Assembly: GCF_020531985.1 (NCBI RefSeq)
Contig: NZ_JAJAVQ010000003.1
Location: forward strand, 186,001-250,000
Length of the DNA: 64,000 nucleotides
Origin: Rheinheimera aquimaris
GTDB taxonomy: Bacteria > Pseudomonadota > Gammaproteobacteria > Enterobacterales > Alteromonadaceae
Direction: 5' to 3'
This document shows, piece after piece, positions 5,444 through 38,132 of this stretch. Position numbers and translations under genes: made by a program. The stretch's first letter is position 1. Each line of letters begins with the position of its first letter. The notes under the pieces were generated by a model. The model had not been told where the DNA came from, made no database searches, and was given only the letters and a program-made list of their open reading frames with translations.

Positions 5444-7089
5444 AGCCAAACCACGGCCACATGTCATTATATGGTTTCAATCGCTGCACGATGTCTTTAC
5501 TTGTGTGTAGTATCAGCTTACTAAGTGGATGCAAGCCTCCCTTGCCGGACACGGTACGAAGTGGCCTAGTGTACTGCTCAGAGGGCTCTCCCGAAACATT
5601 TAATCCTCAACTGGTAACGTCTGGTACCACTATTGACGCTATCAGCCAGCAACTTTATGACCGGCTGCTGGAGATAGACGCAGATACAGGCGAACTGGTG
5701 CCGGCGCTCGCCAAAAGCTGGCAGGTTAGCGCAGATGGTAAAACCTATCTTTTTACCCTGCGTGACGATGTGCAATTTCATCAGACAGAATACTTCAGCC
5801 CATCCAGACCGCTACAGGCTGAAGATGTGGTTTTTACTTTCAACCGTATTATGCAACGCAATCATCCGTTCCACCGCCAGGGTGGTGGAAACTATCCTTT
5901 TTTCCAGAGTGTAGATTGGGCAGATCTGGTCGACAGTGTTACCGCGGACACGCCACATCAGGTGCGTTTTAAGTTAAGCCGGCCTGACAGCTCATTTTTA
6001 TCTAATATCGCAACCGATTTTGCGGCTATTTTGTCGGCTGAATATGGTGCTCTACTCGTTAAATCGGGCCAGTTATCCAGAATGGACAGCCATCCGATAG
6101 GTACCGGCCCTTTCAGGTTTAAGGAATACCAAAAAGATGTGCTTATCCGCTATTATCGCCACCGCAATTACTGGCGTGAACCGGCCAAGCCAGAACAACT
6201 GGTGTTCGACATAGTTCCTAACAACGCGCGGCGCATGGCGAAATTGTTCACACATGAATGCGATGTGGTGGCTTTTCCCCGCGTAGCTGAACTTGGCTTA
6301 ATTAGTAAAAGGCCCGATGTTGATGTGCAGGAAAGCACCAGCATGAATATTGGCTTTTGGGCATTTAATACCGTTAAGCCTCCGTTTGATCAGGTAAAAG
6401 TGCGTCAGGCACTGGCACATGCCATTAACCGCGATGCGATTTTGCAGGCCGTATATTTTGGCCACGCCACCGCCGCCGATTCCGTACTACCACCAACGTC
6501 ATGGGCATATAACCCTAACCTGGCAGTACAGCAATATGACCCGGTTAAAGCAAAAGCCTTATTAACTGAAGCTGGTTATCCCGATGGCTTTAGTATGGAT
6601 ATCTGGGCGATGCCGGTGCAACGACTGTATAACCCTAATGCTCTGAAAATGGCTGAGTTGATGCAGGCCGACTTAGCACAAATTGGCGTGCGCGCCAGCA
6701 TTGTGTCGTACGAGTGGAACAGCTTTCGTCGTAAGCTTGGCTCTTATGAGCATGATTCAGTGTTAATAGGCTGGTCGGCAGACAATGCCGACCCGGATAA
6801 TTTCTTCCGGCCATTGCTAAGCTGTAGTGCAGCACTGACCGGCTCAAACCGGGCTAACTGGTGTGACGAAACCTTTGACAATCTGATAAGCCAGGCCTTG
6901 CTTACCGCTGATCAGAAACAGCGGCGCAGCTATTATATGGCAGCGCAGCAATATCTGGCTGAACAAATGCCGTTGCTCAGTATCGCACATTCCCAGCGTT
7001 TTCAGGCAATTAGCAGCGATATCAAAGGCGTGCGAATAAACCCGTATGGCGGAATTGCGCTGGCTAATGCTGTGAAGGATGTAAAATGA
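5440..7089 (+). CDS. sapA: SapA-like ABC transporter periplasmic peptide-binding lipoprotein
   Basis: A 549-residue member of the family 5 (DppA/OppA/SapA) solute-binding proteins. The N-terminus has a signal peptide with canonical lipobox LLSGC (Cys31), so it is probably a lipoprotein. Family motifs include LVYCSEGSPETFNPQL, LVPALAKSWQVSADGKTYLFTLRDDVQFH and IGTGPFRF. Sap systems import cationic peptides and have been linked to antimicrobial-peptide resistance and, in E. coli, putrescine export. The gene overlaps pspF by ATGA. Internal ATGs at residues 8 and 18 are alternative starts and either would still leave a signal peptide. Confidence 0.9.
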   Translation: MKPNHGHMSLYGFNRCTMSLLVCSISLLSGCKPPLPDTVRSGLVYCSEGSPETFNPQLVTSGTTIDAISQQLYDRLLEIDADTGELVPALAKSWQVSADGKTYLFTLRDDVQFHQTEYFSPSRPLQAEDVVFTFNRIMQRNHPFHRQGGGNYPFFQSVDWADLVDSVTADTPHQVRFKLSRPDSSFLSNIATDFAAILSAEYGALLVKSGQLSRMDSHPIGTGPFRFKEYQKDVLIRYYRHRNYWREPAKPEQLVFDIVPNNARRMAKLFTHECDVVAFPRVAELGLISKRPDVDVQESTSMNIGFWAFNTVKPPFDQVKVRQALAHAINRDAILQAVYFGHATAADSVLPPTSWAYNPNLAVQQYDPVKAKALLTEAGYPDGFSMDIWAMPVQRLYNPNALKMAELMQADLAQIGVRASIVSYEWNSFRRKLGSYEHDSVLIGWSADNADPDNFFRPLLSCSAALTGSNRANWCDETFDNLISQALLTADQKQRRSYYMAAQQYLAEQMPLLSIAHSQRFQAISSDIKGVRINPYGGIALANAVKDVK

Positions 7090-8102
7090 TCTTATATCTG
7101 CTGCGCCGGATGTTTCTGCTGGCCTTCGTCTTTATTGCCCTGAGCATTTTTGCTTTTAGTCTTGGATATTTGTTTCCGGGTGAACCGCTGCAGAACTTTA
7201 CCGGTTTAAGGCATATTTCTGCAGAACAGTTGCCCCTGTTACAACAGGAATACCGGATGGAACAGGGTTACATTGCACAATATCTGGCTTATCTGGGACG
7301 CATTTTCTCTGGAAACTGGGCATTATCATTCTCCAGTCAGCAACCCCTGCTACAGGAAATGCAGATGCTGATGCCAGCAACACTGGAGCTGGCATCTTAC
7401 GCACTACTGATTTCGTTTTTTATTGGTATACCCATCGGTATTATTGCTGCCATCAAACCCGAAGGTACACTGAGTAAATTGATCTCTGCGGTTGCGGTTG
7501 CCGGGTACTCTATTCCGGTGTTTTGGTGGGCCCTACTGCTTATCATGTTGTTCTCCCTCGCGCTGGGCTGGCTACCGACTGCTGGGCGGATTGGCGTTTT
7601 ATACGAAATCAACCATGTTACCGGCTTTATGCTGCCGGATATCCTGCTGTCAGGTACCGCACATCGCCAGGAAGCTATGCTAAACGCACTACGGCATTTG
7701 CTGCTGCCTACCATTGTGCTGGCAACCTTCCCGACGACTGTAATGATAAGATTTACCCGCGATGCAATGCTGGATGTGTGGGAGCAAAGCTATATAAAGA
7801 CAGCCAGGGCAAAAGGGTTGAACCGCGGGCAGGTACTGTACCGGCATGCACTTCGTAACGCACTGTTGCCTGTAATACGGCAAATTGGTTTGCAATTCAG
7901 TACGCTGATCACGCTGGCAATGATTACTGAAGTTATCTTTTCCTGGCCCGGCATAGGCCGCTGGCTGATTGACAGCATTTATCAGCGTAATTATCCGGCT
8001 ATTCAAGCCGGTTTGCTGGTAATATCAACCCTCGTCATAACAGTAAATATGCTGACCGAAATACTTCACACCGTTTTTAACCCGTTGGCAAGGAAACGCT
8101 GA
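7086..8102 (+). CDS. sapB: SapB-like ABC transporter permease
   Basis: A 338-residue inner-membrane permease of the DppB/OppB/SapB class. It starts with a membrane helix (YLLRRMFLLAFVFIALSIFAFSLGYLFPG) and has several further hydrophobic segments. The permease signature is near the C-terminus (SYIKTARAKGLNRGQVLYRHALRNALLPVI). It pairs with SapC to form the channel. Its ATG overlaps the sapA stop (7086-7089). Confidence 0.92.
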   Translation: MILYLLRRMFLLAFVFIALSIFAFSLGYLFPGEPLQNFTGLRHISAEQLPLLQQEYRMEQGYIAQYLAYLGRIFSGNWALSFSSQQPLLQEMQMLMPATLELASYALLISFFIGIPIGIIAAIKPEGTLSKLISAVAVAGYSIPVFWWALLLIMLFSLALGWLPTAGRIGVLYEINHVTGFMLPDILLSGTAHRQEAMLNALRHLLLPTIVLATFPTTVMIRFTRDAMLDVWEQSYIKTARAKGLNRGQVLYRHALRNALLPVIRQIGLQFSTLITLAMITEVIFSWPGIGRWLIDSIYQRNYPAIQAGLLVISTLVITVNMLTEILHTVFNPLARKR

Positions 8103-8103
8103 T

Positions 8104-9000
8104 ATGGCTAAATTCCGCCTGCTTCCGGATGAACAACTTGCCCGCTCTCCTGTCAGACAATTATGGCGTGAGTTCTCAAGGCACCACAGCGCAGTAGCCG
8201 GGCTGCTGCTGTTTATTATTTTTTTTCTGCTGGCACTGATGTCGCCACTGATAAGCCCGCATGATCCTTACTTACAAAATGATACTCTGTTGTTATTGCC
8301 TCCATCCTGGTCAGAACAAGGATTGGTGCAATACCCGTTTGGTACTGACGATCTCGGCCGCGACCTATTCTCCAGGCTGTTAGTAGGTGCGCGATACACT
8401 TTTGGTATAGCTATCATCACCGTGCTCGGTGCTCTCATTATGGGGCTGCTGCTTGGCACCCTTGCGGGTATGAGCAAAGGCGTAAAATCCAGCATTTTTA
8501 ATCATGTACTGGATTTGGCATTAACAATACCGTCTTTGCTACTGGCGATCATAATTGTCGCGATACTGGGCCCTGGCCTGCAAAATACTACCTGGGCTAT
8601 CATGCTGGCACTGCTGCCTCAATTTGTACACGGTATCCGCAACGCTATAGCTGAGCAGCTAAATCAGGACTATGTCGTTGCCTATCGCCTGGATGGCGCA
8701 AATAACTGGCAGGTATTCAGCCGGATTATCATGCCAAACATTTGGGAACGGCTTACGCTGATGGCCACAATGGCTCTGTCAACCGCAACGCTGGATATCG
8801 CCGCACTAGGTTTCCTGGGGCTGGGCGCTCAGGCACCCAGTGCAGAATGGGGAGCCATCATAGGCGACTCACTTGATCTGATTTATATTGCACCTGTCAG
8901 TGTGGCTGTGCCTGGCCTGTTAATCTTTATGGCTGTGTTGTCGGTTAATCTGGTAGGCGATGGCTTGCGTAACGCAGCCAAAAAACGGCGGGAAAACTAA
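8104..9000 (+). CDS. sapC: SapC-like ABC transporter permease
   Basis: A 298-residue permease of the DppC/OppC/SapC class. It has an N-terminal membrane helix (VAGLLLFIIFFLLALMSPLI), the typical periplasmic segment YPFGTDDLGRDLFSRLLVGARYTF and several C-terminal helices. The coupling-helix region reads QDYVVAYRLDGANNWQVFSRIIMPNIW. It follows sapB after one base and shares its final base with the sapD start (TAATG), so the cluster is tightly coupled. Confidence 0.92.
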   Translation: MAKFRLLPDEQLARSPVRQLWREFSRHHSAVAGLLLFIIFFLLALMSPLISPHDPYLQNDTLLLLPPSWSEQGLVQYPFGTDDLGRDLFSRLLVGARYTFGIAIITVLGALIMGLLLGTLAGMSKGVKSSIFNHVLDLALTIPSLLLAIIIVAILGPGLQNTTWAIMLALLPQFVHGIRNAIAEQLNQDYVVAYRLDGANNWQVFSRIIMPNIWERLTLMATMALSTATLDIAALGFLGLGAQAPSAEWGAIIGDSLDLIYIAPVSVAVPGLLIFMAVLSVNLVGDGLRNAAKKRREN

Positions 9001-9995
9001 TGCTGTTGCTGGACATCAAAAATCTGACAATTGAGCTTAAAACATCCGACGCCCTGATCCGGGCAGTAGACAGAGTGAATCTAAGCCTGCGCGAAGGCGA
9101 GATCCGCGGTCTGGTAGGGGAATCTGGCTCTGGTAAAAGCCTGATCGCCAAAGCCATCGTTGGGGTGCTGAATAAACGCTGGCAAATCACCGCAGACAGG
9201 TTTAACTGGCGGGGACAGGATTTACTTAACCTACCGTACGAGCAACAGCGAAAAATCATAGGCCGCGACATTGCCATGATTTATCAGGAGCCAAGCCGTA
9301 GCCTGGATCCTACAGCCGCCATTCTGGAACAGCTCGAAGAAGCTATTCCGGATAATTTGCTCGACGGTCCCTGGTGGAAACGCAGCTATCTGCGCCGGCG
9401 TAAAGCTATAGCGCTGTTACATAAAGTCGGGGTTCGTGACCATCAGTCCGTACTGCAAAGCTATCCTTATCAGCTGTCAGAGGGCGTATGCCAGAAAATC
9501 ATGATCGCGATGGCTATTGCGAAGAACCCCAAGTTATTGATAGCTGACGAGCCAACAACAACGCTGGAAAGTACTACCCAAGCTCAGCTTTTTCGCTTGC
9601 TGGCCAGCTTCAATCAGTTAAAAGGCATGTCAGTGCTGCTGATCAGCCATGAGCTGGAGAGTATAGCGCGTTATACTCAGAGCCTGAGCGTACTCTACTG
9701 TGGTCAGTTGGTTGAGGCAGGTGAAACCGCTGCCATTATTAAACAACCGTACCACCCGTACACGCATGCACTGATTAAAAGTGTGCCCGAATTTCAACCC
9801 GATTTACAACCGAAAACGCCGCTGTATGCTTTACCTGGCAGTATTCCGGTGCTACAGCATTTGCCCATTGGCTGCAGGCTTGGGCCGCGTTGTCCCAATG
9901 CACGCAAAGAATGCGTAAAAACGCCGGCTTTGGACCGTTTACAGAACCATTATTACAGCTGCCACTTTCCGTTGATAGGAAATAAAGACACATGA
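9000..9995 (+). CDS. sapD: SapD-like ABC transporter ATP-binding protein
   Basis: A 331-residue ATPase with Walker A GESGSGKS (40-47), Q-loop IYQEPSRSLDP (94-104) and Walker B LLIADEP (179-185). The signature motif is LSEGVCQ (159-165) in place of LSGGQ. This degenerate signature is known in SapD and helps separate it from OppD/DppD. The C-terminal oligopeptide-transporter extension with its Cys pattern (GCRLGPRCPNARKEC…YSC) is present and may bind a metal cluster. It works with SapF. Confidence 0.93.
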   Translation: MLLLDIKNLTIELKTSDALIRAVDRVNLSLREGEIRGLVGESGSGKSLIAKAIVGVLNKRWQITADRFNWRGQDLLNLPYEQQRKIIGRDIAMIYQEPSRSLDPTAAILEQLEEAIPDNLLDGPWWKRSYLRRRKAIALLHKVGVRDHQSVLQSYPYQLSEGVCQKIMIAMAIAKNPKLLIADEPTTTLESTTQAQLFRLLASFNQLKGMSVLLISHELESIARYTQSLSVLYCGQLVEAGETAAIIKQPYHPYTHALIKSVPEFQPDLQPKTPLYALPGSIPVLQHLPIGCRLGPRCPNARKECVKTPALDRLQNHYYSCHFPLIGNKDT

Positions 9996-10759
9996 GTACT
10001 CTGCTCGAGGTAAAGCAGTTACATAAAACCTACCGCAAACAAGCCGGACTATTTCGCCAGCGCAGTGTCGTTGCACTGGACGATATCAGCTTCAGTCTTG
10101 ATAGCGGCAAAACGCTGGCAATTGTTGGTGAAACCGGTTCTGGCAAAAGCACGCTGGCGAAAATGCTGGTAGGCATTGAGAAACCTGACCACGGAGAAAT
10201 TCTACTGGAAGGCACTAAAGTACAGATAAGCCATTTTCGCCAGTATAACCACGTTATCCGCTTTATTTTTCAGGATGCAGCCAAATCTTTAAATCCACAT
10301 CAAAAAATAGGCCAGATGCTGGACGACGTGCTGCGTTACAGCACAAAGCAAGACACCGAACAGCGTCGCTATAAAATTCGAACCGTGCTAAAACAGGTCG
10401 GTCTGCTTGACGAGCATAGCGAATACTACCCGCATATGTTCTCTGGAGGTCAACTGCAGCGCGTAGCGCTGGCCAGAGCACTTATTCTGGATCCCAAGTT
10501 ACTTATCCTTGATGAAGCCCTGACAGCCCTGGATCCTTCCCTGCGAGCCCAAATTGTAAACTTACTGCTTGAGTTGCAGAAAACATCCGGCCTAGCTTAT
10601 CTGCTTATCACCAATCATCTGCGTCTGGTTAAACACATTGCCGATGATCTGCTGGTACTGCATCACGGAAAAATGCTGGACTATGGTACAACTGCACATG
10701 TATTTGCCAATGCCAGCCATGACTACAGCCGAAAGCTGATTAACAGCGCGCAGGCATAA
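9992..10759 (+). CDS. sapF: SapF-like ABC transporter ATP-binding protein
   Basis: A 255-residue ATPase with Walker A GETGSGKS (46-53), FIFQDAAKSLNP Q-loop, signature FSGGQ (150-154) and Walker B LLILDEA (170-176). Unlike SapD its signature motif is canonical, so the heterodimer probably has one full and one degenerate site. It overlaps the sapD stop by 4 bases and is the last gene of the operon, ending at a strong bidirectional terminator. Confidence 0.93.
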   Translation: MSTLLEVKQLHKTYRKQAGLFRQRSVVALDDISFSLDSGKTLAIVGETGSGKSTLAKMLVGIEKPDHGEILLEGTKVQISHFRQYNHVIRFIFQDAAKSLNPHQKIGQMLDDVLRYSTKQDTEQRRYKIRTVLKQVGLLDEHSEYYPHMFSGGQLQRVALARALILDPKLLILDEALTALDPSLRAQIVNLLLELQKTSGLAYLLITNHLRLVKHIADDLLVLHHGKMLDYGTTAHVFANASHDYSRKLINSAQA

Positions 10760-22793: not shown

Positions 22794-22870
22794 TGGTCGG
22801 TGATGCAGGATTTGAACCTGCGACCCCTTGGACCCAAACCAAGTGCGCTACCAAGCTGCGCCAATCACCG
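22794..22870 (-). tRNA. tRNA-Pro (anticodon UGG), copy 2
   Basis: A 77-nt cloverleaf with encoded CCA. The acceptor CGGTGAT pairs with ATCACCG, the anticodon loop is TTTGGGT (anticodon TGG) and the T arm is GTTCAAATC. It is base-for-base identical to the copy at 23098-23174. It is the last gene of the four-tRNA cluster. Confidence 0.97.
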
Positions 22871-22887
22871 ACTAGATATAAATAAGA

Positions 22888-22964
22888 TGGGGTGGATGAT
22901 GGGGCTCGAACCCACGACAACCGGAATCACAATCCGGGGCTCTACCAACTGAGCTACAACCACC
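22888..22964 (-). tRNA. tRNA-His (anticodon GUG)
   Basis: A 77-nt cloverleaf with anticodon GTG in GGATTGTGATTCC, T arm GTTCGAGCC and encoded CCA. The extra 5' G that marks tRNA-His is encoded opposite a C discriminator. Confidence 0.97.
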
Positions 22965-22988
22965 ACTGAAACTGTCTTGCGCTTGTTA

Positions 22989-23065
<77 letters not shown>

Positions 23066-23097
23066 ACAATCGAAAGCCCTACCAAGCTGTAAACTAA

Positions 23098-23174
23098 TGG
23101 TCGGTGATGCAGGATTTGAACCTGCGACCCCTTGGACCCAAACCAAGTGCGCTACCAAGCTGCGCCAATCACCG
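23098..23174 (-). tRNA. tRNA-Pro (anticodon UGG), copy 1
   Basis: Identical in sequence to the copy at 22794-22870. It is the promoter-proximal gene of the cluster, so the transcript order is Pro-Arg-His-Pro. E. coli has argX-hisR-leuT-proM, so the Arg-His-Pro core is conserved while tRNA-Leu is missing and a second tRNA-Pro is added in front. Confidence 0.97.
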
Positions 23175-28808: not shown

Positions 28809-29834
28809 CTATTGCCGGCCCCTTTGCTGGCGGCATAACCCGCGGCTTAGCAACCCCGCCTGCTGATAAATCTGGTCAAGCAACTGCATATTATTAATAG
28901 CATCCTTACCGCCGGTTAGAGGCATGGCATTACCCAGCAGGCAGTCCCGCAGGTGCAATAGCTGATAATAGTAGGTGCTGTGTCCGGGTACGCTGTACTG
29001 GCGCTCAGTATCGGCTGTTGTCAGTTTGATATTATTTGCCAGATGCGGCGTGATTAAGCCACTAACCTCTATCTGTCCATTTTGCCCTTCCAGCACCAGG
29101 CTGGTGTCGGGCATGCGGCTTAAATGCTCCGCCATGCTGCAACCGATATCGGCGACTACAGCATTATCAAATTTCAGCCGGGCCTGCATCGTTACGTCTA
29201 TCTGCGCACCACCCTCTGCGGTTACGCTGCGGATACACCCAGCACTTTGCACGACAGGCTCGCTGCCCATTACGGTGCGAACCCAATGCAGCGGATAACA
29301 CCCAAGATCCATCATGGCACCGCCGCCCAGTGCGGCCTCATGCCGTAACGAACCGGCAAAGTATGGGATCCGCACGGAGAAGTTGCCGCGCAAATGTAAA
29401 AGCGGGCCAATGACACCGGATTGCACCAGTGTCAGCACTTCAACAAACAATGGATGAAAACGGTAATGAAACGCTTCCAGTAGCAATTTACCCGAGACCT
29501 CAGCGGCTTGCACCATATTACCAGCCTCAGTTGCATCCATTGCAAAAGGCTTTTCGCACAATACATGCTTACCATGTTGCAGCGCCTGAATGGTCCAGTG
29601 AGCATGTTCAGATGGCGGCAAAGCGTTATAAATCACATCGATATCATCACGCGCTACCAACGCCTGATAATTCTCTGCGACATGATTTATGGGGTAAATA
29701 TCAGCATAAGCTTGCGCTTTCGCTTTATTCGACGCCGCAACCGCCTGCACGGTAAAACCGTTAAGCAGTGGCAGCACCTGAAAGATAGCTTTATCGGCAA
29801 TACGAGATGCCCCAAGTAAGCCTATGCGTATCAT
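28809..29834 (-). CDS. Gfo/Idh/MocA-family NAD(P)-dependent oxidoreductase
   Basis: A 341-residue sugar-type dehydrogenase. The Rossmann N-terminus is RIGLLGASRIADKAI, followed by the conserved VIYNALPPSEHAHW, CEKPFAM (EKP at 94-96) and a C-terminal domain with HYRFHPLF and DLGCYPLHWVR, which carry likely active-site His. No signal peptide, so it is cytoplasmic. Family members oxidise or reduce sugars, inositols and sugar acids at a secondary hydroxyl. It lies 11 bases downstream of the GH94 gene, strongly suggesting a role in the same pathway, but the substrate cannot be read from sequence. Confidence 0.85.
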   Translation of the reverse strand: MIRIGLLGASRIADKAIFQVLPLLNGFTVQAVAASNKAKAQAYADIYPINHVAENYQALVARDDIDVIYNALPPSEHAHWTIQALQHGKHVLCEKPFAMDATEAGNMVQAAEVSGKLLLEAFHYRFHPLFVEVLTLVQSGVIGPLLHLRGNFSVRIPYFAGSLRHEAALGGGAMMDLGCYPLHWVRTVMGSEPVVQSAGCIRSVTAEGGAQIDVTMQARLKFDNAVVADIGCSMAEHLSRMPDTSLVLEGQNGQIEVSGLITPHLANNIKLTTADTERQYSVPGHSTYYYQLLHLRDCLLGNAMPLTGGKDAINNMQLLDQIYQQAGLLSRGLCRQQRGRQ

Positions 29835-29845
29835 TGATATCCTCC

Positions 29846-32227
29846 CTATGCTGGCAGCAGTACGTTAACCTGGTAACGTTGCCCGGGCATAATATTGCTA
29901 AACACCATATCAGCCTGTGTTTCACCGTTAACGATAAGCTGAGCGGCTGTCAGGTCTGCCTGACGCCTGATGTTGATAGAAAAGTGCGCGCCACGAAACG
30001 CCCGCTCCAGCTTAACGCCAGGCCAGTGTGACGGCAGTTGCGGGTTAAATTGCAGCCCCTGCGGACAGCCTTTAACACCAAATAAGCCTTCGATCAGACA
30101 GCGGTAAACCCAGTGTACTGTGCCGGTGTTGAATAGCTGGCTGGAGCGGCCCGCCGTGCGCGGCAGTTGCTGCCAGGCGCCACGGTAGTAATTCGGAATG
30201 TACACCGGTAGCTGGCCACGCTGCAGATAATCTGTGGCATCATCACCCGGCAGCATCTGACGCAGCACCTGATAGGCGCGGTCGGGTTGCGCGACCTGAT
30301 AAAGCGCAAACAGGTAAAACGCGGCAGCATGGTTGTACACCGAGCCGTTCTCGGCCGAACCCGGATGTTTTTGCGTCACGCGTCCGACATCGTCGCGCAT
30401 GGCGGTATAAGCCGGCGCCAGCATCTGCACACCAAAAGGCGTCATCAGCTGAGCGTCAATTTCACTCAGCATTACGCTAAGCTGCTCCGGACTGGCTGCA
30501 CCGCTTAACATCGCCCAGCTTTGCGGGTTCAGGTATATACGGCCTTCAACATCTTTGCTGATACCAAACACCACATTGTCATCGGTAATACCACGACCAT
30601 ACCAGCTACCGTCCCACAGATGGCGGTTAACTGCCTGGTTAAAATTATTTGCTTCAGCGCGATATTGTGCCGCATGTTCGTACTGACCTAACTGCTGGCA
30701 AATATCCGCCCAACAGTTAAGCGCGTAGGCAGCAGCCAGTGACAGCCAGCCCGACACGCCTTTACCTTTGTAACCAACCATATTCATCGGGTCGCACCAG
30801 TCGCCCTGTTCGATATAACTCAGGCCACGCTCATCACGCTTATGCAGTAACCAGCCCATCGCCAGACAAAGATGTTCAAATACAGTCAACGGCTCGTCAC
30901 TGTCTGAAAATGCGACCTTTTGCTGTAGCACAGCATAGTCATTGGTCTCGGCCAGATAAGCACTGAGGCATACCGGCAACCAGACACACTGATCAGTATG
31001 CGGCACCTGATTAATATATTTCAGCTCAGCATCCGGGTGTAACAGAATACCATCAGGCATTTCGCCGCTGCGGTGCTGCTGTGCCAGCGCAGTCAGCAAG
31101 GCAGTACGAAAGGCTTGTGGCCGCACATAGCTCATGCCCATATTATCCTGCAGATAATTCCGGGTTTGCGGATCTGTGGTCAAACGGTTGACGTCACCAT
31201 GGTAATACACCTGCCGTGGCAGCCAGTGATTAACAAAGTTATCCAGTGCTTTATCCGGCGTGGTAATTTGCAGGCAGCCTTGGCCCTGTGCAACATAATC
31301 AGCGTATTGTTGCTGCGCCTGATTAAAACCATCTGCTACTGAAAAGTACCGCTGCCGGGCCGCAGCGATTTCTGCTTCAACCAATGCAGGGCCGAACACA
31401 AAGCGATAACGCTGCTCAGCCCCAGGAGCCAACTGCAAACGGTATTGCATCACACAGGCCGGCGTTTCATATAAGGCATCATCTTTACTCAGCTCAGGCT
31501 GTTGCAATGCATCGGGCGCATGCAGGCCACCCTCGCCTTCAAACGGCTGCTGTGCACACTGCCAGCTATCAGGCTGCCGTTCTGCCAGCAAAAAGGTTTT
31601 ATCCTTCAACAGCTTGTTTTTAAAGTAATCTGGATACTTCTGATAAGGCGTAACAGATGAGCAAACAATGGCGTTCAGCTGTGGCTCAAAGCGCGCAGAC
31701 TGATTCATCCACGACATATAGCCCACCGGGAAATAGGGATAGATACTAAGCTGACGCGGCGTGGAACTCAGGTTAGTTACAACAAGCTGCCACAGCTCGT
31801 GCGGCTCGTCCGGGCTTAAACACAGTTGCCACGTTACTTTTAACCCCTGTTGCTGTAAATGCCAGCTGATATCACTTTTACCGGCAGAAAACACAAAGCT
31901 ATCAGCCTTGTTACGCACCGGTTCATACGGCACAGAGAAAATGTCATTGCTCTGCTCATCTTTAATGTATACAAAGCGGCCGGGATGATGTGCGTAATAA
32001 GGCTGCTCCGGCTGCATAAAGGTTTTTGCTTCCAGATTCGGCGCATGAGCGTACTTGGCCGGCTCAGGCTGCATAAACTGCGCAGTAGCATAACCGCGGC
32101 AATTCATCTGGATCATCATGTATTTGTTCCATAAAAACGCTGCAGCCTGCGGCATTTTCACCGGGCTGAGCAGTTCGTAACGGTCACCGTTTGGCTGCAT
32201 AACTGCAGCATGTGTTTCAAAAGACAT
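29846..32227 (-). CDS. GH94 phosphorylase, probable cellobionic acid phosphorylase
   Basis: A 793-residue cytoplasmic enzyme without signal peptide. The N-terminal beta-sandwich region ([26 protein letters not shown]) and the (alpha/alpha)6 barrel ([39 protein letters not shown]) are typical of GH94. The catalytic acid is in [13 protein letters not shown] (Asp479; cellobiose phosphorylases have GDWND). [14 protein letters not shown] holds Arg616 and Lys620, whose spacing resembles the Arg/Lys pair I recall binding the gluconate carboxylate in characterised cellobionic acid phosphorylase. The operon also encodes gluconokinase, whose substrate would be the second product. I infer cellobionate + Pi giving glucose 1-phosphate + gluconate. 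Cellobiose or another disaccharide remains possible. Confidence 0.75.
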
Positions 32228-32272
32228 AGTGCGCAGACTCCTTAAATGTCACTGCGTGCTTGTTGTGCTGTA

Positions 32273-33646
32273 TTACAATTTAGCTGCCGCCGCTTTGCGT
32301 TCGGCAAGCTCGTACTGAATTTTGGCCAGCTGCTGGTTATTCAGGCTGTAAAACCGCATAACAAAAGCAGATAACAGCGCGATAACGCCCGGGATAACCG
32401 AGATCAGCAACACTATGCCATCCTGAGAAGCCGCACTTTGTTGCTCGTTTGCAACATACCCCAGCAGCGCCAGCAACCAACCAATCGCGGCCGAGGCAAT
32501 GGCACCACCAAGCTTTTGTGAGAATGTGGCCGCTGAGAATGTCATTGCCGTTGCCCGCCGGCCGGTGCGCCATTCGTTATAATCAGCCGTGTCGGCATAC
32601 ATCGAAAACGCCAGTGGTGATTTGGGCCCAAGCACAAAGCCAATCGCCAGATTAATCGCGAAGATAAGGCCTACCTGCTGCGCCGGTACAAAATACAAGC
32701 TGATTGACAGCACGCCGGTCAGGCTCATCAACAAAATCATCAGGCGTTTTTTATCAATAAAGCGGGTCATTAGCGGTGTGCAGGCGGCACCGAGTGCTAA
32801 GGCAAACATATAAGAGGACAAAAATTCGCCAACCAGCTCCGGTCGCTGTACAAAGTACTTAAAATAATACACACCGCTGCCTGCACGCATGGTGATACAA
32901 ATCATAATGATCAGTGCCAACGCAAATAGCACCAGCCAGGGCTTGTTGTCTTTTAAATCAGCAATGTCACGCCAGGCAGACTCTGGGATTTGATTAATTG
33001 GTTTGATACGTTCTCGGGTAAACCAGAATGTCGCCAGAAACATCAGCGCCGCTGCTATGCCAAAAATCGCCATAGTTAATTGCCAGCCCAGCACGTCGTC
33101 GCCCTGCCCTAACCATGGCACAAGTTTGGGTGTCAGGTACGTCACCAGAATACCGCCGGTAAAGCCACCGATAAAACGAAAGCTGATAAGCGTAGTGCGC
33201 TGCTGGCTGTCAGCCGTCATCACGCCCGACAGCGCTGAATAAGGAATATTAATGGCCGTGTATATCAGCATCATCAGCGTATAAGTGGCATAAGCCCAAA
33301 TAAGCTTACCGCCCTCGCTGATATCAGGTGTGCTGTAAGTCAGTACCCCCGCTGCCGCCATCGGTAATGCCAGCCATAAAATATAAGGCCTGAACTTACC
33401 AAAGCGGCTTTTTGTTCTGTCGGCGATGGCGCCCATCATGGGGTCGGTAAAAGCGTCGACAATTTTTGTCACCAGCATCATAGTGCCGGCAGCCGCCGCT
33501 GAGATGCCAAATACATCGGTATAGAAAATCAGTAAAAATGCCGAGATATTTGCCCAGTAAAAGTTAAAGCCGATATCACCGACACCGTAAGCGACCTTTT
33601 CACGAAAACTGATACTGCCCGTTGCAGCTGTGTTGTGTTTATTCAC
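32273..33646 (-). CDS. GPH-family (MFS-type) sugar:cation symporter
   Basis: A 457-residue transporter with about twelve membrane segments. The start (SFREKVAYGVGDIGFNFYWANISAFLLIFYTDVFGI) and MMLVTKIVDAFTDPMMGAIADRTKSRFGKFRPYILW are diagnostic of the glycoside-pentoside-hexuronide:cation symporter family (MelB, LacS, XylP types). It lies 45 bases upstream of the GH94 gene in the same operon, so its cargo is probably the disaccharide or aldobionic acid used by that enzyme. Confidence 0.9.
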   Translation of the reverse strand: MNKHNTAATGSISFREKVAYGVGDIGFNFYWANISAFLLIFYTDVFGISAAAAGTMMLVTKIVDAFTDPMMGAIADRTKSRFGKFRPYILWLALPMAAAGVLTYSTPDISEGGKLIWAYATYTLMMLIYTAINIPYSALSGVMTADSQQRTTLISFRFIGGFTGGILVTYLTPKLVPWLGQGDDVLGWQLTMAIFGIAAALMFLATFWFTRERIKPINQIPESAWRDIADLKDNKPWLVLFALALIIMICITMRAGSGVYYFKYFVQRPELVGEFLSSYMFALALGAACTPLMTRFIDKKRLMILLMSLTGVLSISLYFVPAQQVGLIFAINLAIGFVLGPKSPLAFSMYADTADYNEWRTGRRATAMTFSAATFSQKLGGAIASAAIGWLLALLGYVANEQQSAASQDGIVLLISVIPGVIALLSAFVMRFYSLNNQQLAKIQYELAERKAAAAKL

Positions 33647-33729
33647 CCTGTCTGTCTCTTTTATCGTTATTAGATTAATGGCGATAGCCAGTCTGCAATG
33701 CTAAGAATGATATCGCTACCACATTAACA

Positions 33730-34251
33730 TCAGCCTAGCTGCTGGCAAATAATTGCCAGAATTTGCTCAGTGGTTTGCGCGATATCGATATAGTGCACAT
33801 CTGTTTCGTGCTGCGGGCTTTGCATGGTATCAAGCTGGCTGCGCAGCATAGTGGCAGGCATAAAATGATTCTGCCTGGCGCTTAGCCGTTGTAAAAGCAA
33901 GCTTTCTTCACCGTGTAAATAGAAAAACTGCGCCGGGCTGCCGGCTGTGCGTATGCGCTGGCGCTGGCGGGCTATCAAACCGGAATAACTGAGCACACAA
34001 CTTTTCTTTTGCCCGGCGCACAATGCTAACTGCTGGCATAGTCTGTCTATCCAGCTTTCACGCAGCGCGTCAGTCAAAGGAATACCCGCAGCCATCATGG
34101 CTTTGGCTTCTGGACTGTGAAAATCATCGCCTTCCAGATAAACATAGCCAAGCGTGTCAGACAGTAAACTGGCGATGGTAGATTTACCACTGCCGGCCAC
34201 TCCCATAATGATAATAGTCCGGCATTGCTGCGCTAAAGGCGTGACAGGCAT
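33730..34251 (-). CDS. gntK: Gluconokinase
   Basis: A 173-residue shikimate-kinase-like P-loop kinase: Walker A GVAGSGKS (17-24), YLEGDDFHSPEAKAMMAAGIPLTDALRESWIDRL (the gluconokinase DDFH…N/A…M..G.PL.D motif), CVLSYSGLIARQRQRIR and a typical FYLHGEESLLLQRLSARQNHFMPATMLRSQLDTMQSP. It phosphorylates gluconate to 6-phosphogluconate in the cytoplasm. It is the first gene of the minus-strand operon and is divergent from the LacI regulator, with an operator between them. Its presence is the main reason to read the GH94 enzyme as acting on an aldobionic acid. Confidence 0.95.
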   Translation of the reverse strand: MPVTPLAQQCRTIIIMGVAGSGKSTIASLLSDTLGYVYLEGDDFHSPEAKAMMAAGIPLTDALRESWIDRLCQQLALCAGQKKSCVLSYSGLIARQRQRIRTAGSPAQFFYLHGEESLLLQRLSARQNHFMPATMLRSQLDTMQSPQHETDVHYIDIAQTTEQILAIICQQLG

Positions 34252-34306
34252 CGTGCTATGTTGCTCCAGTTATATTTACAAAGACTGTTAGCTTAATTGA
34301 CGAAAA

Positions 34307-34322
34307 ATGATTGCGCAACCAT
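34307..34322. promoter_or_regulatory. Operator 1, between gntK and the LacI-type regulator gene
   Basis: ATGATTGCGCAACCAT, a near-perfect palindrome (7/8 half-site match) centred on GC|GC, typical of LacI-family sites. It abuts the -35 of the regulator's promoter, and its TTGCGC on the minus strand could be the -35 of gntK (17 bases to TAAGCT). The same 16-mer recurs at 38052-38067. Confidence 0.8.
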
Positions 34323-34323
34323 T

Positions 34324-34352
34324 TTGACTGAAATGGCACAATACAGTATTGT
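34324..34352 (+). promoter_or_regulatory. Probable promoter of the LacI-type regulator
   Basis: TTGACT (34324-34329), a 17-base spacer and TATTGT (34347-34352). The operator at 34307-34322 sits directly against the -35, consistent with autoregulation. Confidence 0.65.
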
Positions 34353-34376
34353 TTGTGGAAAAAATAAGATCACGCT

Positions 34377-35378
34377 ATGAGCAGAAAACCTAATTTAAAA
34401 GATGTTGCCAAAGTTGCCGGCGTAAGCGCCATTACGGTGTCAAGAGTGCTGACAGACCCAACAAAAGTGTCTGATAAGTTGCGTAATAAGGTAGAGCAGG
34501 CAGTACGGGAGACCGGCTATATTCGTAATCATGCGGCCAGTGCACTGGCATCCTCACGTTCGGGTGTTATTGCCGTGATCATTCCGTCGCTGTCTAACAT
34601 TGTGTTTAATGAAGTGCTGCAGGGCATTTACCAGACGGCCAGGCCAAACAACTTGCAGGTTGTTTTGGGCGACTGCCACTATTCACCACTGGAAGAAGAA
34701 AAGCTGATCGCAACGCTGCTGGGACAATCACCGGAGGGCATTATTCTGACCGGTGCTGCCCAGACCGACTACGCTCGTAAATTACTTGAGCGGGCCGATA
34801 TTCCGGTGGTACAACTGATGGAGCTGACAGATCAGCCAATAGATATGAATATCGGCTTTTCCCATTTTCATGCCGGCTATGATATGACGAAACACCTGCT
34901 GCAACGTGGTTACCGCACGCCAGGGTTTATTGGTGCCAGAATGGATCCCCGCACCCAGCAGCGTCTGGCCGGCTTCAGGCAGGCGCTGGCTGACTGGCCA
35001 CAACCTTGTCAGAGTTTTGTGCAAACCACCACCCAACCCTCGTCCGCACGGTTGGGGGGCCAGTTACTGCAAGCATTGATTGCAGAGTCTGCCGGTAAGT
35101 GCGATGCCGTATTTTGCTGCAATGATGACTTAGCACTCGGTGCCTTATTTGAAGCGCAGAAGATGAACCTGGCTGTACCCGGCGATATCGCTATCTGCGG
35201 TTTTAACGATCTGGAATCTTCTTCTTTGGTAAACCCGTCAATTACCTCTGTCGCGTCGGCCCGCTTTGATATGGGTAAACAGGCAGTAGAAATGTTGCTG
35301 GCGGCAGCAGGTAAGCCACGAAAATCAATCGCGCCAATTGATGTTGGTTATCAAATTATTGCCAGACGCTCGACCTGA
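34377..35378 (+). CDS. LacI-family regulator resembling the gluconate repressor GntR
   Basis: A 333-residue regulator with N-terminal HTH (LKDVAKVAGVSAITVSRVLTDPTKVSDKLRNKVEQAVRETGYIRNHAASALAS) and a periplasmic-binding-protein-like effector domain. Long stretches follow the pattern of E. coli GntR as I recall it: VIIPSLSNIVFNEVLQGIYQ, PEGIILTGA, IPVVQLMEL, IGARMDPRTQQRLAGF and CNDDLALGALFEAQ. The natural effector would then be gluconate or 6-phosphogluconate. It is divergent from gntK. Three copies of a shared palindrome in this locus are its likely targets. Confidence 0.88.
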   Translation: MSRKPNLKDVAKVAGVSAITVSRVLTDPTKVSDKLRNKVEQAVRETGYIRNHAASALASSRSGVIAVIIPSLSNIVFNEVLQGIYQTARPNNLQVVLGDCHYSPLEEEKLIATLLGQSPEGIILTGAAQTDYARKLLERADIPVVQLMELTDQPIDMNIGFSHFHAGYDMTKHLLQRGYRTPGFIGARMDPRTQQRLAGFRQALADWPQPCQSFVQTTTQPSSARLGGQLLQALIAESAGKCDAVFCCNDDLALGALFEAQKMNLAVPGDIAICGFNDLESSSLVNPSITSVASARFDMGKQAVEMLLAAAGKPRKSIAPIDVGYQIIARRST

Positions 35379-35399
35379 AACCTGTATTTAGCCGATAGG

Positions 35400-35428
35400 A
35401 AAAAGCCCTGCAGTGCAGGGCTTTTTTT
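35400..35428. terminator. Bidirectional terminator between the LacI regulator and TonB receptor genes
   Basis: GCCCTGCA and TGCAGGGC pair with an A-run before and a T-run after (GCCCTG/CAGGGC with a 5-base loop in practice). Both converging genes end next to it. Confidence 0.92.
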
Positions 35429-35436
35429 AGTAAGTG

Positions 35437-37881
35437 TTAGTCAAACCGCACTTTTAACCGCATACCTAACGTACGTGGAGCCTGCCACATATAGTTCGGT
35501 ACCGGGTTGCTGTTCCAGCGGCCCTGATCACTCTTAATTTCTTCATCAGTAATATTGTTAACAAAAGCTTCCAGACTCCAGTTACCTTCTGACGGCTCAT
35601 ATGTCAGGCTGGCGTCCCACTTCGCATATGCATCCTGTCTGTCGATATCAGCTGCATAAGGTAAACCACGGAACCCTTCTGGCCGATCGCCACGGTTTGC
35701 CGGATCAAACCAGATCTCTGATGAGTAGCTCATCCGAACCTTTGGTTTTAACGTTGCACCGTTACTCAGCTCGAAGAAGTGCGCGTAATTAAGTGACAAA
35801 CTAAACTCAGGCGCCTGCACCAGATGGTTACCGCTAAAATCGAGTAGGTTTGGCAATGCCGGATTGCCAGCCGACGGGTTAAAGGCAATACCATCAGCAC
35901 CGTAGCTTGAGTCTGTGGTGAAAAACTCATCATACTTCGCATCAAGGTAAGACATAGACCCGCTTAGTTCGCCGTTTTGACCAACCAACCATTTAGCTTC
36001 TAGTTCCAGACCGTTAATTGTGGCTTTACCAGCATTCGTTTTACGCAGTAAATCAGCGCCGGTTTCGGTCAGTACATTACTGGTTACCTGTAAGTCGGTA
36101 TACTCGGTGGTGAAAAGTGCCGCGAACAGTTGCAGTGTATTGTCAAGGAAGCTACCTTTTAAGCCCAGTTCAATACTGGTGTTTTCTTCCGGCGCTACAT
36201 AGGCATTGGTACCAGCCGTTTCATTATTGTTGGCAGCAATAATGGCATCCAGATCAGCCTGGGTGAACGGGCCTTCACCTGTGTAGCGGTTTCCATCCTG
36301 AATAGTACCTGATTTAAAGCCAGTCGCATAAGAGGCATACAACATCACATCAGGGGTAAAATCCCACTCCAGGCGCGCCATACCTGTCGTCTTATCCCAG
36401 CTTGGGCTGGTATCGTTGTAGGTATCTACCCAGCACTGCCCTGGCTGTACCAAAAACTTGTTTGGTGCCAGGCCGTTTAATAAACCATCCGGATCCAGCA
36501 AACCAACATAGTCACTGTTAAGCGGCAGATTTTCAGTGCGTTTTACATCAGGGCACATAATATTGCGTCCGCCTCTATCCCAGCGCTCATCTTCGGTATA
36601 ACGCAGCCCTACGCTCAAACGAAACTCATCCGTTACCTTATAAGTACTTTGTGCATAGATACTGTTTGATTTTAAACCGCGATCCGGCTGACGGTAGGTT
36701 GACCACAGATTAGGGTTAGGCGTGTTGCCACCTTCGTAGTCTACGTCCGGGTGTACTATGTCAAAGTGCGTGCTGTTGTTCTCTTTGAAGTAAAAATACC
36801 CCACCATCCACTGCAGCCGCGCACTGTCTTCGTTCTTAATTTGCAGTTCATGCTGGGTCGCTTCATGGGTACATTCCACACAGCCGCCCCACTCGTACTT
36901 ATCCGGGCTCCAGCTTCTGTCCCACACTGACTCACGGGAAGAATCAGTGTAACCACCGATGTAAGACAGTGTTATACCGCTATCGAAATTGTAATTCATA
37001 CGGGTGCGGAAACTATCAATAACAAAATCGTTGAAACCCGGCTCCTGAATATAAGCAGACCGCGATGAACCACCTGTTATTGTCGGAATTTGACCTGTAC
37101 CCTGATCATTAAAATTCTCATAAGATAAAAACCAGTCAAAGTTGTCGGCTGGCTGCCAGAACGCACTGATACGTGTGGCTGACAAATCTGTTGCGCCATA
37201 TTTATCACCCATGGCAGAACCCGGCGCCATATCAACATAACCTTCAGACTTATCCATCGCCGCCGCAACACGAATAGCAAACGTCTCACTCAGTGGCAGG
37301 TTTACCATGGCGCGGGTAGCGCGGCGGTCGTAATTACCAATGGTGATTTCAGCATTGGCTTCGAAGTAATCCAGTTTAGGTTTGGCGGTGTGTAAATTAA
37401 CAACACCGCCGGTGGCATTGCGGCCAAACAAGGTGCCCTGCGGTCCGCGCAGAATTTCAGCGCCTTCAAGGTCAAACATCAGCGCAGAGGCACCCTGAGA
37501 CCGGGCGGAGTAAATACCATCAACATGAAACGCAACCGCCGGGTCACCACTTTCAGTTTGATCAGATGAACCAATACCGCGTACATACACCATAGGCGTA
37601 TTCTGCGTACCGTTCTGAGCTATATGCAGGCTGGGCACGATGCCCTGTAAGTCGTCCAGTTGCAAAACATGGTTATCATCAAGCGCATTCTGATCGAACG
37701 CCGTTACCGCCAATGGCGTTTCCCTGATAGTGGTTACACGCTTGGTCGCACTGACCTGGATAACCTCGATAGCCCGAGTATTTTCGCTACCTGCTTCGCT
37801 GGTCTGAGCATTAACACCACCGGCGGCCAGAATAGCCATGCTGGTATAAAGAAAGCTTTTTTTAAATTTGAATATAGGCAC
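35437..37881 (-). CDS. TonB-dependent outer-membrane receptor
   Basis: About 814 residues. The GTG at 37881 is chosen because AAGGA lies 9 bases upstream and a signal peptide follows at once (FKFKKSFLYTSMAILAAGGVNAQ); the frame stays open to 37959. A TonB-box-like IEVIQVSATKR precedes the plug (TIRETPLAVTAFD … GTQNTPMVYVRGIG … DGIYSARSQGAS … EILRGPQGTLFGRNATGGVVNLHT). The barrel ends MWQAPRTLGMRLKVRF. These receptors import siderophores or carbohydrates with ExbBD-TonB energy. Two copies of the locus operator lie upstream, so the cargo is likely the sugar acid metabolised by the neighbouring operon. Confidence 0.9.
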   Translation of the reverse strand: MPIFKFKKSFLYTSMAILAAGGVNAQTSEAGSENTRAIEVIQVSATKRVTTIRETPLAVTAFDQNALDDNHVLQLDDLQGIVPSLHIAQNGTQNTPMVYVRGIGSSDQTESGDPAVAFHVDGIYSARSQGASALMFDLEGAEILRGPQGTLFGRNATGGVVNLHTAKPKLDYFEANAEITIGNYDRRATRAMVNLPLSETFAIRVAAAMDKSEGYVDMAPGSAMGDKYGATDLSATRISAFWQPADNFDWFLSYENFNDQGTGQIPTITGGSSRSAYIQEPGFNDFVIDSFRTRMNYNFDSGITLSYIGGYTDSSRESVWDRSWSPDKYEWGGCVECTHEATQHELQIKNEDSARLQWMVGYFYFKENNSTHFDIVHPDVDYEGGNTPNPNLWSTYRQPDRGLKSNSIYAQSTYKVTDEFRLSVGLRYTEDERWDRGGRNIMCPDVKRTENLPLNSDYVGLLDPDGLLNGLAPNKFLVQPGQCWVDTYNDTSPSWDKTTGMARLEWDFTPDVMLYASYATGFKSGTIQDGNRYTGEGPFTQADLDAIIAANNNETAGTNAYVAPEENTSIELGLKGSFLDNTLQLFAALFTTEYTDLQVTSNVLTETGADLLRKTNAGKATINGLELEAKWLVGQNGELSGSMSYLDAKYDEFFTTDSSYGADGIAFNPSAGNPALPNLLDFSGNHLVQAPEFSLSLNYAHFFELSNGATLKPKVRMSYSSEIWFDPANRGDRPEGFRGLPYAADIDRQDAYAKWDASLTYEPSEGNWSLEAFVNNITDEEIKSDQGRWNSNPVPNYMWQAPRTLGMRLKVRFD

Positions 37882-37947: not shown

Positions 37948-37963
37948 ATGTTTGCGCAACCAG
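37948..37963. promoter_or_regulatory. Operator 3 (variant), upstream of the TonB receptor gene
   Basis: ATGTTTGCGCAACCAG matches the 16-bp operator of 34307-34322 at 14 positions. It is 67 bases upstream of the receptor start and 88 bases from operator 2, a spacing that could allow looping. Confidence 0.6.
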
Positions 37964-38051
37964 AAAGCCTGATCACTAAAAGCGGCATGCGAAGCATAAA
38001 GACAGCAAGCAATGCACTACTTTATTGCGGCGCATTGTCACACAAAGCAAA

Positions 38052-38067
38052 ATGATTGCGCAACCAT
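38052..38067. promoter_or_regulatory. Operator 2, upstream of the TonB receptor gene
   Basis: ATGATTGCGCAACCAT, identical to operator 1 and embedded in a longer identical stretch (extra A's on the left, TT on the right). It lies 171 bases before the receptor GTG. Confidence 0.78.
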
Positions 38068-38132
38068 TTATTGTTCAAAAATTTATCAACCTATAGGACA
38101 ACACGTGGTTAAAAAGAGTTATATGGTGATCA

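Follow-up and report, generated by a model that had tools for sequence, protein, structure and literature searches.

A predicted GntR-controlled locus for the import and phosphorolysis of cellobionic acid in Rheinheimera aquimaris, with a candidate TonB-dependent receptor

The DNA studied here (the window) is a stretch of 64,000 nucleotides from Rheinheimera aquimaris, positions 186,001 to 250,000 of contig NZ_JAJAVQ010000003.1 in a genome of 4.23 Mb (assembly GCF_020531985.1). It holds a six-gene locus that, as judged from sequence comparisons, very probably imports and splits cellobionic acid. Four of the genes run in series on the minus strand, in such a way that a gluconokinase of the GntK/IdnK type (173 aa, 33730-34251) is followed after 83 bp by a GPH (MelB-type) symporter (457 aa, 32273-33646), after a further 45 bp by a GH94 protein (793 aa, 29846-32227), and 11 bp later by a Gfo/Idh/MocA oxidoreductase (341 aa, 28809-29834). 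Divergent from gntK lies the gene of a LacI-family, GntR-like regulator (333 aa, 34377-35378, plus strand), whose end converges with that of the gene for a TonB-dependent receptor (TBDR; 814 aa, 35437-37881, minus strand). The preliminary description of this DNA had reported these six genes and the short gaps along one strand, and all of them were recovered in the frame listing as open frames at that place and on those strands. The TBDR start used here is the GTG of the frame first proposed, and a longer alternative frame begins with TTG at 37959. Between the convergent ends of lacI and the TBDR gene, the palindrome GCCCTGCAGTGCAGGGC followed by a T-run (35400-35429) was judged by eye to be a probable terminator, and it is absent from the list of the terminator scan. 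The promoter scan gave 8 matches versus 12.6 in shuffles, and its result was not used.

The GH94 protein scored above the cut-offs of two models of its family, PF17167 (205 bits versus 27) and PF06165, which cover the catalytic and supersandwich domains. Structure 4ZLE is described, in the accessible part of PMC8950772, as Sde_0906, the cellobionic acid phosphorylase (CBAP) of Saccharophagus degradans (SdCBAP). The match to 4ZLE was full-length and reached 1185 bits, with 497 of 780 aligned residues identical (64%), whereas all other solved GH94 proteins in the match list gave 200 bits or less, and the cellobiose phosphorylases 115-136 bits. Gln196, Arg616 and Lys620, the residues singled out beforehand for comparison with the Saccharophagus enzyme, are present and align with Q190, R609 and K613 of 4ZLE. 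Nam et al. are said to have found in 2015 that Gln190, Arg609 and Lys613 of SdCBAP bind the carboxylate, and that the enzyme also takes glucuronic acid as an acceptor. The same Q/R/K triad is kept in all 83 CBAP-like rows aligned, these being the window GH94, SdCBAP, 80 fetched loci and L081, in which the window gene is represented a second time; further GH94 matches in L049 and L057 that fell below the score and length filters were excluded. The sole non-CBAP GH94 kept in the alignment (L061) has M, Y and Y at the triad positions. The GDWCDPMN loop, which had also been put forward as active-site support together with Arg616 and Lys620, turned out to be weak evidence, because its tabulated residue W477 is identical in the non-CBAP outgroup GH94. 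These data support that the protein is nearest to CBAP and not to cellobiose or laminaribiose phosphorylases, in agreement with the assignment first made, and strongly support a predicted CBAP-type splitting of cellobionate with phosphate. A splitting enzyme of this kind is known, and the core pathway is mostly known biology.

The 80 fetched loci were the best of 516 found, and comprise 17 Rheinheimera-type loci (L001-L015, L017 and L040, with L009 belonging to a gammaproteobacterial metagenome-assembled genome), 30 other non-Bacillota loci and 33 Bacillota loci. Within these best 80, the nearest GH94 relatives are from Rheinheimera, at 82% identity. The arrangement is more than chance, for BLAST with the window proteins shows GntK and GPH to be present together in 17 of 17 Rheinheimera-type loci; among the rest, 15 of 30 other non-Bacillota loci have both, as against 0 of 33 from Bacillota. 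The Bacillota loci (Paenibacillus and relatives, for instance L018 and L036) have the full triad, and a different route of import and gluconate use may serve there, given that no GntK or GPH neighbour is recognisable. A second, shorter GH94 match (57%) lies about 3 kb past the first in the Maribacter locus L057. On plasmids, no match to CBAP was found at E 1e-100.

The GPH protein is the proposed inner-membrane importer of cellobionate. It passed the cut-off of TIGR00792 (400.9 versus 231.35 bits), and the highest-scoring NCBIfam GPH model, PRK09669 for YagG, gave 430 bits, under its cut-off of 610. Compared with MelB and with five GPH proteins of E. coli, the symporter is 26-37% identical. 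A lysine, K342, was found in 46 of 46 CBAP-linked GPHs and in none of 16 controls, and no other basic residue reaches 95% of the CBAP-linked set while being absent from the controls. The CBAP-linked set consisted of the window protein, those of 44 of the 47 non-Bacillota loci and that of G038, a genome from another family of the order, whereas the loci with no GPH match (L016, L056, L078 and all 33 of Bacillota) were left out of the count. The controls comprised MelB, the five E. coli proteins and 10 plasmid matches, drawn from 30 listed out of 211 records, and all stay at or below about 41% identity to the window protein. In MelB, the counterpart of K342 is F341, the neighbour of W342, which is part of the MelB sugar site. 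We propose from this pattern that K342 may help to recognise the carboxylate. Two points weigh against this proposal: Y30 shows nearly the same distribution (44 of 46 CBAP-linked GPHs, and no Y in the 16 controls), and the CBAP-linked GPHs may form a single clade, so that K342 could mark common descent alone.

The gluconokinase scored above the cut-off of TIGR01313 (143.2 versus 113.75 bits). The regulator, placed by family profile scores, reached 395.6 bits with the GntR equivalog model NF052440, some 4 bits short of its cut-off of 400; this shortfall counts against a GntR assignment, and for that reason the protein is labelled GntR-like. A gluconokinase and a gluconate-type regulator, as predicted here, fit gluconate as the second product.

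An 18-mer, AATGATTGCGCAACCATT, occurs exactly at 34306-34323 and at 38051-38068. The first copy is in putative operator 1 (34305-34324, core ATGATTGCGCAACCAT at 34307-34322), a palindromic site in the gluconokinase promoter region, between the divergent gntK and lacI starts, and the second is in putative operator 2 (38050-38069, with 18 bp identical to operator 1), whose core lies 171 bp upstream of the TBDR start. A degenerate version, ATGTTTGCGCAACCAG, forms putative operator 3 (37948-37963), 67 bp upstream of the same start. Allowing up to three mismatches, the 18-mer gave four strand-wise matches at two places versus a shuffle mean of 0.10, and none of 100 shuffles reached four. The core with up to two mismatches was found at seven places in the genome, versus two for a backward-read control, and both exact places plus a third lie in the CBAP locus. 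The neighbours of the other four (L084, L085, L087 and L088) are a two-component system, HtrA-type proteases, no clear gene, and a PAP2-like protein with a response regulator; by eye they show no link to gluconate, and these sites were accordingly set aside as chance.

The palindrome between gntK and lacI is preserved within one mismatch in 14 of the 17 Rheinheimera-type loci and with two mismatches in L017; a regulator of this kind is missing from the loci L015 and L040. All 10 Rheinheimera-type loci with the TBDR gene have the palindrome upstream of that gene, with at most one mismatch. When nine of these ten upstream regions plus that of G038, and eight gntK-lacI regions, were aligned beside the window, the palindrome stood as a conserved island amid diverged flanks, and variants such as ATGATAGCGCAATCAT are found between gntK and lacI of Cellvibrio-type loci. 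This palindrome and the family of the regulator suggest that the LacI-type protein would control the operon and the TBDR gene through a common site.

Taken together, the data lead us to favour, with good confidence, a GntR-controlled regulon for cellobionate utilisation, in which import and splitting would proceed as follows. The TBDR would carry cellobionic acid (4-O-beta-D-glucosyl-D-gluconate), scavenged from the oxidative breakdown of cellulose by others, across the outer membrane, and passage of the inner membrane would be through the GPH symporter, in which K342 is proposed to aid in recognising the carboxylate. CBAP would then split it with phosphate to alpha-glucose 1-phosphate and gluconate, a step for which homology and active-site residues make a strong case, and the gluconokinase, by homology, would convert gluconate to 6-phosphogluconate, which would enter the Entner-Doudoroff or pentose phosphate route. 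At the common site, the GntR-like protein would repress both the TBDR gene and the gntK-GPH-GH94-Gfo/Idh operon, and would be released when gluconate or 6-phosphogluconate accumulates. The range of substrates may exceed cellobionate, given the glucuronic acid that SdCBAP reportedly accepts, which tells against too narrow a view of the locus.

The place of the TBDR in this scheme had been proposed from its position. The protein has a TonB plug (PF07715) and a beta-barrel (PF00593) above Pfam cut-offs, and its AlphaFold model (pLDDT 49.6) was too poor and was not used. In a genus sample of 25 genomes, the source genome included, CBAP was scored at an identity of at least 80% and found in nine, and the TBDR (E ≤1e-60) was present in 8 of these 9 and in 0 of the 16 CBAP-negative genomes (Fisher p 8e-6, uncorrected for kinship). 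Among 16 other genomes of the order, CBAP was found in G038 (64%) and G032 (58%). In a wider set of 295 genomes drawn from the order, scored with three candidates per genome, the TBDR (E ≤1e-150) was detected in three, the source genome, G014 and G038, all of them CBAP-positive, the CBAP search having covered the genus sample and the 16 other order genomes. G038 carries the genes of the regulator, TBDR, GntK, GPH, GH94 and Gfo/Idh in one cluster, which also has two operator-like sites, each with two mismatches. At 79-80% identity, the TBDR was found in 4 of 29 genomes checked, which hold 29 of the 80 fetched loci (L007, L008, L012 and L010, the copy of the latter at a contig end), and homologues of 33-34% identity stand inside LacI-GntK-TBDR-GPH-GH94 series in Massilia (L077) and Pseudoduganella (L069).

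It is unlikely, in our estimation, that the TBDR is a neighbour of convenience for another substrate, such as a siderophore or a neutral beta-glucoside, with gntK-GPH-GH94 alone handling cellobionate. Several observations do speak for that alternative and against a dedicated receptor. The best NCBIfam model of the protein is a generic TonB-siderophore one, under its cut-off (128 versus 223.5 bits), and the genus counts are phylogenetically non-independent. Six of the 17 Rheinheimera-type CBAP loci (L009, L011, L013, L015, L017 and L040) lack the TBDR, and no copy near 79-80% identity was found in the genomes that hold them. In the CBAP-positive genome G015 neither TBDR nor Gfo/Idh was found; its contig ends inside GPH, so that the position of the TBDR is not visible, and that of Gfo/Idh is visible and empty. 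In G032, CBAP is adjoined by GntK and a distant LacI, with no match to GPH, TBDR or Gfo/Idh of these types. The TBDR is therefore not essential, as the six close loci, G015 and G032 do without it. Moreover, five distant homologues (about 32-35%) were fetched outside CBAP loci, next to glucokinase and LacI (L121 and L124), MalK-type ABC genes (L122 and L123, the latter also with GH1), or FecR and tryptophan halogenase (L120), several of their neighbours having no Pfam match, which suggests that the wider subfamily is often glucoside-linked rather than restricted to cellobionate. Against the alternative stand the conserved palindrome common to the TBDR gene and the sugar operon, the co-occurrence with CBAP, and the homologue inside the two betaproteobacterial series. 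The link of the TBDR to the locus is thus better founded than when first proposed, and transport of cellobionate by it is predicted from sequence.

The preliminary description had further held that a TBDR for an aldobionic acid would be a new transport assignment. We found no report of a TonB receptor for cellobionate, although the absence is weak because the literature search was thin on subscription papers. The novelty is tempered since TBDRs for C1-oxidised chitin oligosaccharides have already been published, according to the portion of PMC9537276 that was available. No report of cellobionic acid together with Rheinheimera was found either, in a search with poor coverage of subscription papers.

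The oxidoreductase scored above the GFO_IDH_MocA cut-off of Pfam, and sequence and model (pLDDT 84.8) agree in a Gfo/Idh fold with the EKP motif; the motifs HYRFHP and GGGAMMDLGCYP are also intact. In the genus sample it was found (E ≤1e-40) in 8 of the 9 genomes that have CBAP and in none of the 16 that lack it, four of nine matches crossing one TAG stop. It is present in 14 of the 17 Rheinheimera-type CBAP loci, in none of the 30 other non-Bacillota loci at the score used, and also beside CBAP in G038, with weaker matches (27-31%) in L019, L020, L048, L072 and L079. Aldose-aldose oxidoreductase (AAOR) and glucose-fructose oxidoreductase (GFOR) oxidise the C1 of aldoses. By fold search, the nearest solved structures are KijD10, 1,5-anhydrofructose reductase, GFOR and AAOR, at 21-27% identity. 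On both sequence and fold the top relative is KijD10, and in the fold comparison 1,5-anhydrofructose reductase outranks AAOR and GFOR, so that the protein was found no closer to AAOR and GFOR than to other subfamilies and was not filed as AAOR.

An oxidation of co-imported cellobiose at C1 inside the cell, by which Gfo/Idh would feed unoxidised cellobiose into the CBAP route, appears unlikely to about the same degree as an unrelated TBDR. The C1-oxidising enzymes among its solved relatives, for one of which xylonate formation is mentioned in an abstract, would be consistent with it, as would its co-occurrence with CBAP in the genus and the 11 bp that separate it from GH94. On the other side, the similarity to 3-ketoreductase and 1,5-anhydrofructose reductase is as great or greater, so that the position attacked is not fixed, and the fold search gives no split between C1-oxidase and C3-reductase readings. 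The eight proteins scanned at the locus include no lactonase, and L015, L017, L040 and G015 lack Gfo/Idh. We propose instead a lineage-specific accessory oxidoreductase whose substrate would be one of the sugars or sugar acids in the pathway.

LPMO-driven decay of cellulose (LPMO, lytic polysaccharide monooxygenase) releases aldonic acids. In the source genome, the one PF03067 (LPMO_10, AA10) protein has GbpA_2 and CBM5/12-type domains and adjoins two GH18 chitinase genes; it lies at 9494-10720 of L095 (G000:C9:308000-327000) as part of a chitin cluster. No match to GH9 or GH5 was found in the genome, the GH5 controls being positive, and none to GH6, for which the control set was likewise silent. 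For a membrane glucose dehydrogenase dependent on pyrroloquinoline quinone (PQQ), there was one weak match far under the cut-off. The host was thus discarded as a maker of its own cellobionate through an LPMO, as was the PQQ enzyme as a source. An LPMO is found in 9 of 9 CBAP-positive versus 3 of 16 CBAP-negative genus genomes, a count in which kinship and the chitin-type domains are confounders. With no GH5 or GH9 match and a chitin-type protein as its one LPMO, the host is unlikely to attack cellulose oxidatively itself. These results, along with the lack of a PQQ glucose dehydrogenase over cut-off, suggest, within the limited range of families searched, that it scavenges cellobionate produced by other organisms.

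In G038 (L103), the full locus is accompanied by two membrane PQQ glucose dehydrogenase matches over cut-off and by no LPMO_10 or GH9 match, on which grounds its cellobionate might come from periplasmic oxidation of cellobiose. A GH3 gene stands directly before gntK in L015 (5233-7845), a CBAP locus with no TBDR, Gfo/Idh or regulator of these types, and L040 has a frame of equal length (871 aa).

That the main natural substrate is another beta-glucosyl acid handled by the same enzyme, for instance a glucosyl-glucuronate from exopolysaccharide, would agree with the glucuronic acid reportedly accepted by SdCBAP and with the missing GH5 and GH9 matches. We consider it quite improbable, because the locus combines a gluconokinase and a GntR-like regulator with a common operator, and no uronate enzyme was found among the eight proteins scanned. 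An ordinary cellobiose phosphorylase, with the gluconokinase serving free gluconate, was ruled out for practical purposes and deserves hardly any credence: GH94 holds many cellobiose enzymes, several of them in the match list, but the bit scores and the full triad at 64% identity to SdCBAP oppose it.

Beyond the favoured regulon, a fuller scheme can be drawn, in which a non-cellulolytic chitin degrader would scavenge cellobionate all the way from the outer membrane to 6-phosphogluconate, with the first TonB receptor for a cellulose-derived aldobionic acid, K342 reading the carboxylate, and Gfo/Idh turning stray cellobiose into cellobionate for the same phosphorylase; as a whole, we regard it as unlikely. 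No account of how a disaccharide acid passes the Gram-negative outer membrane was found, in a literature search thin on subscription papers. The locus gives concrete candidates for both membranes, the TBDR at 35437-37881 and the GPH with K342, backed by regulatory and comparative data. The receptor and the candidate acid-sensing residue of the symporter look like new assignments. What the analysis adds is regulatory and comparative support for the proposal of a dedicated TonB receptor, a symporter residue that can be tested, and the picture of a non-cellulolytic scavenger, suggesting that cellobionate is a public good used by bacteria with no obvious cellulases.

Elsewhere in the window, a pspF-type activator gene and a sap/dpp-like ABC transporter operon lie on the same strand (4361-10759), the gene overlapping the start of the operon, and four tRNA genes (Pro, His, Arg and Pro) are clustered at 22794-23174.

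Several parts of the locus have counterparts in known systems. The Saccharophagus enzyme Sde_0906/4ZLE is alike in family, in 64% of its residues and in the Gln/Arg/Lys triad. The accessible part of PMC8950772 also gives Xanthomonas XCC4077 and Neurospora NCU09425 as CBAPs, the alignment here covering Sde_0906 alone. Unlike the Saccharophagus, Xanthomonas and Neurospora entries, the present host shows no GH5 or GH9 match and has a chitin-type AA10 LPMO only. Among E. coli transporters of the GPH family, YagG (annotated as a putative D-xylonate transporter; 34% identity) and YicJ (37%) have T and V, respectively, at the position of K342. Caulobacter AAOR, Zymomonas GFOR and the KijD10 3-ketoreductase share fold and family with Gfo/Idh, whereas AAOR and GFOR have export signals, as far as the available text of PMC4628093 goes, and no signal peptide is apparent by eye in Gfo/Idh here.

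The cellobionate pathway of Neurospora crassa (CBT-1, CAP and gluconokinase), in the part of PMC4537572 at hand, has the same series of importer, CBAP and gluconokinase, and the gluconokinase was needed when the pathway was moved to yeast. Its importer CBT-1 has a family-specific arginine near the modelled pocket, R438, which would parallel K342 as a basic residue specific to cellobionate transporters and whose replacement is reported to cause a loss of function. The fungal pathway differs in having a fungal importer, no outer membrane and no TonB receptor, whereas here a single bacterial locus is found. The published TBDR system for N-acetylglucosamine (GlcNAc) acids is alike in TBDR import of C1-oxidised oligosaccharides, in a dedicated regulator and in an inner-membrane symporter, and differs, in the text available, in the GlcNAc acids themselves, periplasmic hydrolysis, an SSS symporter, a MurR/RpiR regulator and no phosphorylase being named. 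The Shewanella beta-glucoside locus, as presented in the accessible part of PMC2996990, likewise joins a TonB-dependent transporter (OmpBgl), a GPH symporter (BglT) and a LacI regulator (BglR), but it serves neutral beta-glucosides and lists a glucokinase where the Rheinheimera locus has a gluconokinase.

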